Part shown: positions 24,813-29,250 of the stretch, one piece after another
Layout: the number at the start of each line of letters is the position of its first letter
Position numbering within the stretch: position 1 is the first letter of the stretch
Assembly: GCA_958510825.1 (NCBI GenBank)
Contig: OY294048.1
Span: 16,199,589 to 16,263,588, forward strand
DNA: 64,000 nt
Reading direction: 5' to 3'
Source of the DNA: Brachypterus glaber
Taxonomy: Eukaryota; Arthropoda; Insecta; Coleoptera; Kateretidae
Notes under the pieces: model-generated
Told to the model about the DNA's origin: nothing
Databases searched by the model: none
Seen by the model: only the letters and a program-made list of their open reading frames with translations
Made by a program: the position numbers and the translations under genes

Positions 24813-25074
24813 TAGAAAAAACGGATTCCTTGAACCAAGGACACGTGTCTTTGGATATGTTCAAAGCCATATTCTCTTGTTTCAAGGCTGGCATTTTCTT
24901 GAACCAAAGTCAATGTCCTTGAATAAAGAGCGCGGATTTTTATTCCAAAATCCGTGCTCTTCATTCAAGGACATTGACTTTGGTTCAAGAAAATGCCAGC
25001 CTTGAAACAAGAGAATATGGCTTTGAACATATACAAAGACACGTGTCGTTGGTTCAAGGAATCCGTTTTTTCTA
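24813..25074. repeat. Near-perfect 262-bp palindrome
   Basis: Arms of about 128 bases (24813-24940 and 24947-25074) differ at only four positions by my reading, with a loop of about six bases. Each arm is itself built of short palindromic words ('ccttgaaccaagg', 'cttgtttcaag', 'cttgaaccaaag') spaced 15-47 bases apart. A 70-codon minus frame (24882-25094) stays open across the arm but has no recognisable domain. A very recent foldback insertion is the simplest reading; if transcribed it would give a long dsRNA hairpin. Confidence 0.92.
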
Positions 25075-25502
25075 GCCATGATGCAGCAAAACAAAATTTA
25101 ATACAGCTGTAGTGTTTTTAATTATAATCTCCCCAAAAAAAAAGGTTATAGAGGGTTTTAAAAAAATCAAAAATTTCAGAAGAAAAAGTCAGATTAACGT
25201 AATTAAAAAAAATATATTTTAAAAATCAATCTTTTTGATTAAAAACAAATGTTATACGGACATACTTGATAACATTATATAGGTACTAAATTTTGCTTAG
25301 TGTATATAGTGTATCTATAGTGTACCTATAGTGTATCCTGTTCCTGAGAAGGATGTTTTGTTTTTTATGTCAACTTTTTTATTTATTTTGAGTTTTAGTT
25401 AAATCATTTTAACTTACGTAAAATATTTGGTAAAATGAATTATAGTATGGACTGTGAATTTCTATAAAATATTATTTTCTTTTTACAGTAATAACCAAAA
25501 TA
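25075..25502. other. Intergenic with a small tandem motif
   Basis: 'tatagtgtacc' type units repeat about three times at 25300-25335. No gene seen. Confidence 0.45.
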
Positions 25503-25790
25503 TTATTTTAATAACTTTACTTTTCTTTTAATTATTTTGTTACGGTCCTGTTGAAAGGAAAACTCCGAATATAATTTCTGAGGCGTACCCTTAGCTAACC
25601 TCGTATATATTTCACAGTGTATTCTGGACTGGTCACTTTGGTAGTTATCAACATGCATGATGTCATTAACAGCTATATCATTTTTCAATGTTAGAATATT
25701 ATCTCCAAGACTACCATTTTGTGCCTGTTCTACGCCTACTGTTACAGAAAAACATAACCACAAGCAGAAAAATGTAATGACTTTTTTTTA
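25503..25790 (-). pseudogene. Secreted-like small reading frame, start codon not visible
   Basis: Reading on the minus strand from about 25788, the open frame begins 'KVITFFCLWLCFSVTVGVEQ', a basic residue plus a hydrophobic stretch with a plausible signal-peptidase site, followed by a hydrophilic part ('NGSLGDNILTLKND', 'HVDNYQSDQSRIHCEIYT') and a lysine-rich end, stop near 25503. There is no in-frame ATG: TAA stands two codons before the K. The family is unknown to me. A decayed copy at 29040-29250 shares 'gtagaacag', 'caaaatggtagtc' and 'catgttgataac'. It may be an internal exon of a real gene, but without a start or splice evidence I treat it as a remnant. Confidence 0.4.
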
Positions 25791-26858: not shown

Positions 26859-27309
26859 AAGGTTTTATCCAATAAATAGCTTAGTAATTCATATTTTTAT
26901 TAAAAATTTTAATGACATTTATTAAGAAAATAATTTGACAAGTGACAGTTTAGTGGGCAAAATAAATAATTATCCACTCAATAAAGTAAAAGCCACGCGG
27001 AGGTTATTATTGAGTTTATCTATTTAAAATAAAGCTGGTAATTGTCTTATTATCTGTATGTATTGGATAAATAATATTTTTCGTTGGGTTCAAAACAAAA
27101 GGTCAGACTTTATTCGCATAAGGAATATAGTCGTTAGAATTATGTAGACTTATGCGTCATCTATTGCTAGATGTAGACAACTACTCATACCTCTCCTAGT
27201 CTGGAGACTTTGAATGGTAGCAAGTTGAAGACTTGTAAAGATAAAGATAAAGTTAAAATCCCCCGTGGATCTAGAAAACTAAATATAGGGTCGTCAGAGT
27301 TGTATATAC
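26859..27309. other. Intergenic, nothing recognised
   Basis: No gene or paired repeat noticed. Confidence 0.35.
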
Positions 27310-28622
27310 TTAGGCTTTTTCTAAAAGAAATTCTTTTAGTTTAACTTTAAAACTAATATCTGAGTTTATGTTACTAATTTTTTTAGGTAGCTTATTAAAT
27401 ATTTTTACAGTCATGTAATAAGGACTTTTTTCAAAAAATGTGGTGGTGTGTTTCGGAAAAAAAAACATGTTGTCGTGTCTCATTACTAAACCAGTGTTTA
27501 AATCAGAATTTTTTATAAAGAGATGACTATTCATAAGTCCAAAAATACAAATATTATATACAGGGTGATCCATAACTGGCTCGCCAAAATTTAAGAGGTG
27601 ATTCTAGATCCAAAAATATAAAAAAAGTTCCTATAAAGGTTGGTCCGGAAATGAGCCCTAAGGGATCTAGGGCCCTTTAAAATTGTAATAAAAATAAGGT
27701 TTTTAATTAATAACTCGGGTACCGTTTAAGCTAGAGCGGCGAGCTTTTGCATGTATACTAGTATTAATAAGGGCAATAAGTTTATGTTAATTTATTTTTT
27801 TAATTTATCCAGAGGCGTGCCCAGACGGACAAAATATATGAGGCTTAAAACATTTTTGCCCCAAACTTTTCTATGTGTATGTTTTTTGGATTTGTTGTAA
27901 AAAATATAGATTTCTAGAGTAAAAATACATATAAAATATCATATAGTGTAACACTGTAGGAGCAACCGTTATCAAAAAAAAAAATGCAATTAAGAGGAAG
28001 TAACATTTTGTGCCACCAAAAACGTTACTTTTAAAAGGCTATTACTCCTTTAATATTAAATTTAGGTGTTTTGGTGTATAATACTTTTTTGCTCAGTTTT
28101 AAATGAAGAATCACCCTGCAGCATTAAAATTTTATTGGTGCTTTTTTTTGTTCCCCATTCAATACGTCATCTTCGAAGGGCCGTAGCTCCCTTAGGGCTC
28201 ATTTCCGGACCAACCTTTATAGAAACTTTTTTTCATATTTTTGGATGTAAAATCACCTCTTAAATTTCAATACGCGAGTTCTGGAACAGGCTGTATATAG
28301 AGAGAATAGATAGTTAGAATTTTTAATTTTATGAAATGTGGTTTACAATGGTCTCTATATTTAATACTGGATATGGTTCAAACTATCTTTTTTTGTAAAA
28401 TAAATAACCTTTCAATAAAAGTGGATGCGCCCCATATATTAATATTATATTCGAGTCTACTCCGTATATAAGCATTATAGTATAGTAATAACATGTTTTG
28501 GTTAACTAGACTTTTAAGATTCCAAATTACAAAGTGTGCACTCCTAATTTTAGCAGCAATATCACTTATATGCGTTTCCCAGCCTAAATGTGCATCAACT
28601 TTTTGTGTCTCAAGCACTAACG
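27310..28622 (-). pseudogene. Non-LTR RT C-terminus split by a foldback insertion
   Basis: On the minus strand the first part (28622 to 28294) reads 'LGWETHISDIAAKIRSAHF', then 'NMLLLYYNAYIRSRLEY' and 'NINIWGAST', typical of the thumb of Jockey/CR1-like reverse transcriptases. A TGA at about 28377 replaces an expected arginine, and the frame continues 'TISSIKYRDHCKPHF', 'LKILTIYSLYI'. The foldback at 27561-28293 then intervenes. The second part (27560 to 27310) continues 'YNICIFGLMN', 'KSPYYMTVKIFNKLPKKI' and ends 'FKVKLKEFLLEKA'. Removing the foldback and one TA rejoins the frame. The catalytic palm is absent, and upstream the fragment stops at the ribozyme-bearing repeat. Confidence 0.87.
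27561..28293. mobile_element. CAGGGTGATC foldback MITE, complete, 733 bp
   Basis: Left end 'cagggtgatccataactggc' and right end, inverted, 'caggctgttccagaactcgc'. TA duplication at 27559-27560 and 28294-28295. Arms of about 120 bases share 'atttaagaggtga', 'atccaaaaatat' and 'ggttggtccggaaatgagcc'. Two truncated copies lie at 16800-17346 and 57130-57522. No transposase is encoded; the 65-codon frame at 28066 is incidental. It is younger than the reverse transcriptase relic that it splits. Confidence 0.93.
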
Positions 28623-28632
28623 TGTGATTAGT

Positions 28633-28871
28633 CGTAGAAGTAGTAAGGGCAGAAATTTTTAATTTTAAACAAAATTATAAAAATAAAATTTAAATATAAT
28701 TTCTTAATCAGCGTGCAGAGTTGACTCTTGATACTGAAGAGGGCCAGCAGCCCGAAACTGTCAGTCTACCAATATCACTGTACGATGATCAGAAAATACA
28801 TTGATGGAATAATAAATTAATATTTTTATAATTTTGTTTAAAATTAAAAATTTCTGTCCTTATTAATTCTA
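28633..28871. repeat. Inverted repeats enclosing hammerhead 1
   Basis: 28633-28685 ('cgtagaag', 'taagggcagaaattttta', 'attttaaacaaaattataaa') is mirrored at 28821-28871 ('tttataattttgtttaaaat', 'taaaaatttctgtcctta', 'ttctacg'). Arms are about 52 bases. Hammerhead 1 lies between them; hammerhead 2 lies just outside the right arm. Confidence 0.85.
28728..28772 (+). ncRNA. Type I hammerhead ribozyme motif, copy 1 (core intact)
   Basis: All core bases of the hammerhead fold are present in order. CUGAAGA is at 28734-28740. Stem II is GGGC/GCCC (28741-28744 with 28750-28753) with a CAGCA loop. GAAA is at 28754-28757. Stem III is A-U, C-G, U-A closed by GUC (28757-28765). The cleavage site is UC at 28765-28766, predicted between 28766 and 28767. 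Stem I pairs UUGAUA (28728-28733) with UACCAA (28767-28772), one mismatch. Beyond an internal loop, CGUGCAG (28712-28718) pairs with CUGUACG (28778-28784), giving the extended stem I with internal loop seen in natural fast-cleaving type I hammerheads. Such short-stem-III hammerheads are known from Penelope-like elements and retrozymes, where they process transcripts. Activity is inferred, not shown. Confidence 0.82.
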
Positions 28872-28912
28872 CGTGTAAAAACGTTTTCTTAATCAGCGTG
28901 CAGAATTGACTC

Positions 28913-28957
28913 TTGGTACTGAAGGTGGCCAGCAGCCCGAAACTGTAAGTCTACCAA
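28913..28957 (+). ncRNA. Type I hammerhead ribozyme motif, copy 2 (core decayed)
   Basis: Stem I is perfect here (UUGGUA 28913-28918 with UACCAA 28952-28957). GAAA is at 28939-28942, stem III closes with GUA, and UC sits at 28950-28951. The core strand reads CUGAAGG at 28919-28925, so the invariant last A is G, and the first stem II base is U opposite C38. Both changes should reduce or abolish cleavage. The copies complement each other: copy 1 keeps the core, copy 2 keeps stem I. Confidence 0.78.
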
Positions 28958-29039
28958 TATCACTCCGTACGATGATTAGAAAATAGATTGATGGAATAAT
29001 AAATTAAATTATTCATTTGGAGTATATCAAAAGCATCGT

Positions 29040-29250
29040 TCGTTTGAGCAAAAGGTCTTTTTTTGAGAAGTGTATTCTGTTAGTTATCAACATGATTGAT
29101 CTCATTTATTGCAATACTATTTCTAATATGTCTGTCTAATAAGGTGTAAAATACCTTTGTATATAAGGTCCCAGAACGACTAATAAATAAATATTTTCTC
29201 CATGACTACCATTTTGCGTTCTGTTCTACGACTTCCATGTTTTCATACAA
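29040..29250 (-). pseudogene. Decayed paralogue of the 25.5-kb secreted-like frame
   Basis: On the minus strand 'gtagaacag', 'caaaatggtagtc', 'ggagaaaatatt', then after an insertion 'agatcaatcatgttgataac' and 'agaatacact' align in order with 25503-25750. A one-base insertion after 'gtagaacag' and a TAA after the 'HVDN' codons break the frame. The insertion at 29132-29191 resembles a LINE tail. Confidence 0.6.
29132..29191 (+). mobile_element. Very short non-LTR 3' end fragment
   Basis: About 60 bases absent from the paralogous sequence at 25.6 kb: 'cctttgtatataaggtccc', then 'actaataaataaata', the kind of TAAA-repeat tail left by 5'-truncated LINE insertions. Confidence 0.45.

Follow-up and report, generated by a model that had tools for sequence, protein, structure and literature searches.

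The locus described here raises the question of what two short ribozyme-like motifs, lying side by side in the genome of the beetle Brachypterus glaber, belong to. The window (the whole stretch of 64,000 nucleotides of contig OY294048.1 that was analysed) had been reported in an earlier note to carry a pair of type I hammerhead motifs at 28728–28957, and the pair is present there, base for base. The block of copy 1 (28700–28820, plus strand) comprises an extended stem I, the core and stems II and III, and is recognised by its fold, by 92.7% identity to copy 2 over 123 columns and by full-length family matches at 94–98%. Its catalytic core through C17 occupies 28734–28766 of the plus strand. 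CTGAAGA, starting at 28734, is followed by the 4-bp stem II (GGGC/GCCC, loop CAGCA) with GAA after it, and by a stem III of just 3 bp (ACU/AGU) closed by the 3-nt loop GUC. Every invariant base of a type I hammerhead (CUGANGA...GAAA...UH) is found in copy 1, as had been claimed, and cleavage is predicted after C17, between 28766 and 28767, in agreement with the position proposed before. Three helices with an open stem I are predicted for copy 1 as well as for the family blocks described below. The extended stem I noted previously is present too; as a correction to the earlier description, the 6-bp stem itself (TTGATA/TACCAA) contains one A.C mismatch. In copy 2 (block 28885–29007 with the core at 28919–28951, both on the plus strand) the 6-bp stem I is perfect. 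Its core departs from the hammerhead consensus at A9, which is replaced by G; this mutation had been recognised, but not a second defect, the U.C first pair of stem II.

The core pattern with up to two mismatches matches twice in the window versus 0.01 matches expected by chance. The full descriptor (core, stems II and III and at least 5/6 pairs of stem I) matches once, and its three matches in 1000 single-strand shuffles correspond to 0.006 per window, an expectation that by itself is insufficient to decide the matter in a genome-wide scan. The folds are moderately better than those of shuffled sequences (z = −2.43 for copy 1, −1.84 for copy 2 and −1.58 for the 185-nt unit). It is the repeat family that decides the hammerhead identity of the pair: the core together with stems II and III is kept in 90 of the 102 near-complete blocks found in the genome, the two window copies being counted among the 102.

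Two tests of the ribozyme put forward in the earlier note turned out negative. No Rfam match at the gathering level is obtained in the window or on an intact family copy (L018), and RF00163 is absent from the matches at E ≤ 10 for both window copies and for L018. With permissive filters the best Rfam match of copy 1 is RF03152 (RAGATH-1 hammerhead) at 16.8 bits, aligned in register. L018 matches the same model at 21.3 bits (E = 0.1), again with the core in register and far under the gathering cut-off of 56.3, and no hammerhead model matches copy 2 alone. Compensatory changes in the stems were seen at 0 of 35 pairs among 67 distinct genomic copies. Both tests are weak here, because the copies are ~98% identical, which is too little divergence for the compensatory-change count to say much, and because the best Rfam match is still a hammerhead model in register.

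Folding energies give a more complicated picture of the motif. In the energy model the hammerhead fold of a single copy (−33.8 kcal/mol) is 6.3 kcal/mol worse than a misfold (−40.1 kcal/mol) that contains a CUGA/UCAG helix. For two strands the dimeric hammerhead (−80.1 kcal/mol) ties with two misfolded monomers (−80.2 kcal/mol), a consequence of the near self-complementarity of ACUGUCAGU; with the two strands free to fold, the optimum is −84.3 kcal/mol. One whole 354-nt unit (L029) folds with z = −5.6, none of 100 shuffles being as good. The hammerheads of Penelope-like elements (PLEs) reportedly also cleave as dimers, this being named in a paper title. Dimer cleavage is reported for newt hammerheads as well (PMC6155905). 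By these model energies, cleavage of the beetle hammerhead as a tandem dimer appears plausible.

The DNA search of the 648-Mb genome (842 contigs) revealed a family of at least 42 matches including window copy 1, 40 of the 519 first-look candidates having been scored. The 41 matches besides window copy 1 are covered by 32 fetched regions (the L-numbered loci), which together with the window contain the 102 near-complete hammerhead blocks, partial blocks being excluded, and 54 complete units. The unit is exactly 354 bp long in 35 of these 54 (range 341–355), and the median pairwise identity of units is 98.3%. A perfect TTGGTA/TACCAA stem I is found in 67 of the 90 intact blocks, while 19 have the mismatch of window copy 1. 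Minor alleles are less frequent in the core columns than in the remainder (0.21 vs 0.63 per column, significance not computed). GC content is 36% in one unit, and three units of one array (L029) contain no ORF longer than 59 aa; a Penelope-like ORF (reverse transcriptase (RT), GIY-YIG) is absent from these units, so the family is not classed as a PLE. Arrays reach about 9 units within one fetched stretch. The median difference between units of one arm is 0.8% versus 2.5% between loci, and this relation holds in 10 of 12 loci, the exceptions being L027 and L043. In part of one array (L020, 2254–4866) units of 354 bp alternate with units of 346 bp, the shorter form having an 8-nt deletion in stem II; such an alternation is expected from a dimeric template, or from amplification at a later time.

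Searches outside the beetle did not extend the family. The 19-base family pattern has no match in viral contigs, the 25-base pattern none in GTDB genomes, and the plasmid search gave no match. A phage search returned 46 records, of which the 20 listed are matches of 28–29 nt with E of 0.1–0.4. A hammerhead pattern occurring in 5 viral contigs was dismissed as chance, since none of them folds unconstrained into a full hammerhead.

The classification as a small non-autonomous, non-coding hammerhead retroelement is strongly supported for the family, which probably cuts its own RNA. It fits the non-LTR retrozymes of animals, and its novelty lies in the mode of insertion.

As many as 25 of the 32 loci are arranged head-to-head (minus-strand units followed by plus-strand units), 7 are unidirectional and none is tail-to-tail. 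Outer ends were classed, within bounds set by the analysts, as A (unit 105–140, short) or B (unit 150–180, long); A lies ~50 nt and B ~97 nt past the predicted cleavage site, which follows unit position 67. Wherever both outer ends of a head-to-head locus could be classed (19 loci), A and B occur once each. This rule was counted on the same 32 loci in which it was found, so that the PLE loci described below are its only independent check, and L040 is a weak member of the 19, its ends falling inside the AT-rich tail (the segment between A and B). In the remaining six head-to-head loci a B end is accompanied by an unclassified end (three loci) or by a cut-off end (two), and an A end by an unclassified one (one locus). 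Far pieces of L023, L031 and L042 were left out before the ends were counted; L031 would have an A end, at unit 120, if its piece were kept. Also not counted, being treated as cut, were the right ends of L029 and L046, the latter reading unit 120 with a 12-letter shared stretch there. One arm is shorter than 40 nt in four head-to-head loci (L040, 17 nt; L024, 24 nt; L039, 28 nt; L021, 34 nt).

Target duplications, taken as exact shared flanks of at least 9 letters, are seen in 17 of 30 testable loci compared with 19 of 870 mismatched flank pairs; the other 13 loci have no shared flank stretch of 9 letters. The shared stretches are 9–16 letters long with 83% A+T, a few of the letters in them perhaps matching the element by chance, and they exceed the 4 bp given for retrozyme duplications. 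The duplications fix the ends narrowly: in these 17 loci A falls at unit 115–122 (16 ends, +48 to +55 from cleavage) and B at unit 161–167 (16 ends, +94 to +100), and all 15 head-to-head loci with a duplication have one A and one B end. An AT-rich inverted repeat is situated between A and B and is weak when folded alone (−1.0 kcal/mol).

The inner ends behave differently from these two fixed outer ends. The 57 inner (5') ends show an even distribution along the unit (KS p = 0.43), and only two are found 8 nt or less from the cleavage site compared with 2.7 expected. No stop of reverse transcription is thus evident at a 5' end made by the hammerhead, in keeping with templates that are circular or uncut. 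At the joins the two arms overlap by 0–6 nt in 19 of 25 cases and are separated by 1–14 nt of filler in 6 of 25. Between the arms of a single locus, 12 of 114 informative sites are different (15 loci, arms under 60 nt excluded), versus 22% between loci. This similarity favours related templates for the two arms, a single RNA per insertion not being proven by it.

The structure of the family explains the window locus, which is 92–96% identical to a family unit and, within a young family, represents an old copy that has suffered deletion. The tail region of copy 1 with the equivalents of the A (unit 115–122) and B (unit 161–167) ends, mapped by alignment, lies at 28812–28864 on the plus strand and includes the same weak inverted repeat. 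The rest of unit 1 (28821–28884, plus strand) is shortened, ~165 bp of the 354-bp unit being missing near 28877. The spacing of 185 bases given previously is therefore correct as a distance but is not the period of the family. The block of copy 2 ends on the right at unit 123, in the short (A) class. On the left, the inverted head-to-head arm is preserved on the minus strand in two parts: the inner one (28597–28692) corresponds to unit ~215 to 116 and the outer one (27105–27236) to unit 346 to 215. No hammerhead is found in this inverted arm, and its outer end at unit 346 is neither A nor B and looks decayed or lost. The two parts are separated by a later insertion of 1.36 kb (27237–28596), read by eye, which is not retrozyme. 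It resembles a minus-strand LINE truncated at its 5' end, with an (ATCTTT)n tail and RT-like fragments; two stretches tried within it gave no Pfam match at E ≤ 1. A MITE-like element with long terminal inverted repeats (27555–28299) is nested in this insertion. The reading of 28290–28640 (minus strand) as a single LINE RT frame was rejected, as part of it is the inverted retrozyme arm. The locus has thus been reduced by deletion, and its inverted arm was interrupted when another element inserted later. The proposal of a small non-autonomous retroelement, predicted to be self-cleaving, is strongly supported with regard to the hammerhead family, but the pair alone is not the complete element.

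Two other repeats are visible around the locus. The segments 25639–25737 and 29078–29233 are diverged copies of one sequence (78% over a 45-nt piece and 86% over a 44-nt piece); inspected by eye, this sequence is possibly a former minus-strand coding region. A long near-perfect palindrome at 24830–25075, also found by eye, is probably a foldback element.

Penelope-like elements are present in the same genome. The search for GIY-YIG gave at least 31 matches with 150 of 419 candidates scored, and several of those at the loci inspected belong to reading frames of PLE type in which RT motifs can be made out by eye. One family, PLE-A, contains a 716-aa ORF (L068) with RVT_1 and GIY-YIG domains according to Pfam, and the best-ranked named relative of its protein, at rank 4 after three unnamed ones, comes from the beetle Coccinella septempunctata. 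Another family, PLE-B, was identified from its GIY-YIG match and by visual inspection instead of Pfam. Cut sites in both were taken from a hammerhead-like motif, which in PLE-A departs from the canonical core while having the ACU/AGU-C stem III motif in common with the retrozyme. Measured from these sites, PLE-A copies end at +51 to +61 (6 ends) or +86 (4 ends), two further copies continuing into an ORF, and PLE-B copies at +65 to +73 (6 ends) or +96 to +98 (7 ends), with one deleted copy at +45; the values +86 and +98 are the lengths of the references used, and the true ends may be a few bases further. One short and one long end are combined in five of six head-to-head PLE loci (L050, L055, L061, L067 and L069), which have shared flanks of 12–18 letters (counted without a mismatched control). 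In the sixth, L059, both outer ends are short and no shared stretch exceeds 6 letters, so that there is no clear duplication. The inverted repeat between the ends is more stable in PLE-B than in the retrozyme (−3.9 vs −1.0 kcal/mol). No PLE with the tail sequence of the retrozyme was found among the families reached by the GIY-YIG search. Further PLEs (L058, L070, L049 and L071) have minimal hammerhead-like motifs running into GAAACGTT; these families, C (L049 and L071) and D (L058 and L070), were excluded from the end classing. Matches to the retrozyme unit within the 24 loci of this search (L048–L071) are short (17–44 nt) and nearly all fall in its AT-rich part. A 44-nt stretch in L051 (300–400), on the strand opposite to the GIY-YIG frame, is 84% like the 3' half of the hammerhead and is possibly an older relative of the retrozyme family.

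Two fixed ends, target duplications and similar ends of PLEs in the same genome point to Penelope-like machinery, and the shape of the insertions suggests an enzyme borrowed from Penelope. The link between Penelope and retrozymes, which the earlier note had drawn by analogy, is here supported by the structure of the insertions. Most probably, the window locus is the degraded remnant of a non-coding retrozyme with a 354-bp tandem unit that was moved by Penelope-like machinery. We infer that the arrays, whose unit and intact motifs are directly observed, would be transcribed and that the hammerheads, probably best as tandem dimers, would cut the RNA into units; circles or uncut multimers would then serve as the template, in line with the scattered 5' joins. 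A Penelope-like protein (RT and GIY-YIG) would cut both strands of an AT-rich target ~13 bp apart, giving the duplications seen. Each of the two target ends would act as a primer for cDNA synthesis on the retrozyme RNA, starting ~50 nt beyond the cleavage site in one case and ~97 nt in the other; these positions are those of the two end classes that occur once each per insertion and have their like in the layout of the PLEs. The two cDNAs would finally be joined head-to-head through end joining.

A more specific version can be offered only tentatively. One docking site on the RNA, the tail beside the hammerhead, might feed both active sites of a Penelope-like RT dimer, so that in each insertion the near edge of the tail would be the priming site of one cDNA and the far edge that of the other, the two coming from different target strands, and retrozymes would spread by copying the hammerhead-tail module. 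This reading is held slightly less readily than at first, because the inverted repeat of the tail folds weakly alone. If it is true, the rule of one A and one B end is the signature of concerted two-ended integration, common to autonomous PLEs and their parasites.

The closest alternative in content keeps the same movement and changes the origin: the family would be a shrunken non-autonomous PLE, that is, pLTRs without an ORF, instead of a retrozyme of separate origin. The order of hammerhead and tail, the ends and the duplications all resemble those of PLEs in the same genome, the ACU/AGU-C motif of stem III is common to PLE-A and the retrozyme, and a 2024 review proposes that retrozymes are reduced PLEs (PMC11722881). 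We nevertheless regard it as unlikely: apart from the hammerhead-half match in L051, the resemblance of the unit to the PLE loci is confined to short and mostly AT-rich stretches, and the minimal PLE motifs contrast with the retrozyme hammerhead, whose 3-bp stem III is looped and whose stem I is long.

Other ways of moving or multiplying the unit agree with the data much less well. Twin priming is a known LINE product with a 5' inversion, in which just one outer end is the fixed 3' end of the RNA. A LINE mobilising the family, with inverted arms made by twin priming, would find its agent in the LINE-like frames read by eye in the window (no Pfam match), but both outer ends of the retrozyme lie at one of two fixed sites, unlike the products of twin priming, and the junctions, examined by eye, have neither poly(A) nor a LINE-like 3' end; this explanation is very improbable. 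Even less credit is given to an ordinary satellite spread by unequal crossing-over or circular DNA with the hammerhead as a passenger. Tandem arrays of up to about 9 units, the alternation of 346- and 354-bp units in L020 and the greater likeness of units within one arm in 10 of 12 loci are what local amplification would give likewise. It does not account for dispersed insertions with duplications and two precise ends, nor for intact cores in 90 of 102 blocks with core columns less variable than the rest.

As mobilisers of retrozymes, LINEs or PLEs are named as no more than candidates in a 2020 paper, PLEs on the basis of common hammerheads, tandem copies and coexistence (PMC7229834), and according to a 2024 review LINEs or PLEs are still the candidates (PMC11722881). 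The PLE-like insertion ends turn this guess into a question that is directly testable with purified PLE protein. The rule of one A and one B end bears in addition on PLE integration itself, as the asymmetric tail, a feature of PLEs known for a long time, would then be connected with two priming events, one on each target strand. Our literature search found no paper joining retrozymes, head-to-head insertions and Penelope, though earlier reports may exist elsewhere.

Animal non-LTR retrozymes, insects included, are described as tandem units of 150–450 bp with a type I hammerhead, low GC, no LTR, duplications longer than 4 bp and highly self-paired RNA (Cervera & de la Pena 2020, PMC7229834). 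The present family is alike in unit size, GC below 50%, one hammerhead per unit, duplications above 4 bp and the absence of coding sequence. The main text of that paper is silent on two fixed ends, head-to-head arrays and a tail; the words "tail", "inverted" and "head-to-head" do not occur in it. Another insect tandem repeat with a hammerhead per unit is the pDo500 family of Dolichopoda cave crickets (PMC2837043), with repeats of ~500 bp termed a satellite.

The insertions themselves find their nearest counterpart in PLEs. Those of Adineta are reported to have head-to-head inverted pLTRs, a 31-bp tail on one of them and duplications of 8–10 bp (PMC3846280), and the PLE protein of Anolis (PAc) cuts and extends both target strands (PMC11167929). 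The PAc tail is the sequence between two RT start sites; the start site shows no strand difference, and hammerhead cleavage is not needed (PMC11167929). Head-to-head repeats, duplications and a hammerhead upstream of the tail are common to these elements and the retrozyme, and an optional tail of 30–40 bp on one side is found in Adineta Pen and Anolis PAc as in the retrozyme, whose insertions have the one-sided tail and head-to-head ends of a PLE. By arithmetic, the distance from the PAc hammerhead cut (+26) to the RT start (+111 to +118) is 85–92 nt, compared with 94–100 nt in the retrozyme. Unlike PLEs, the retrozyme has no ORF, is organised in arrays of a 354-bp unit and carries a looped 3-bp stem III in place of the minimal one.
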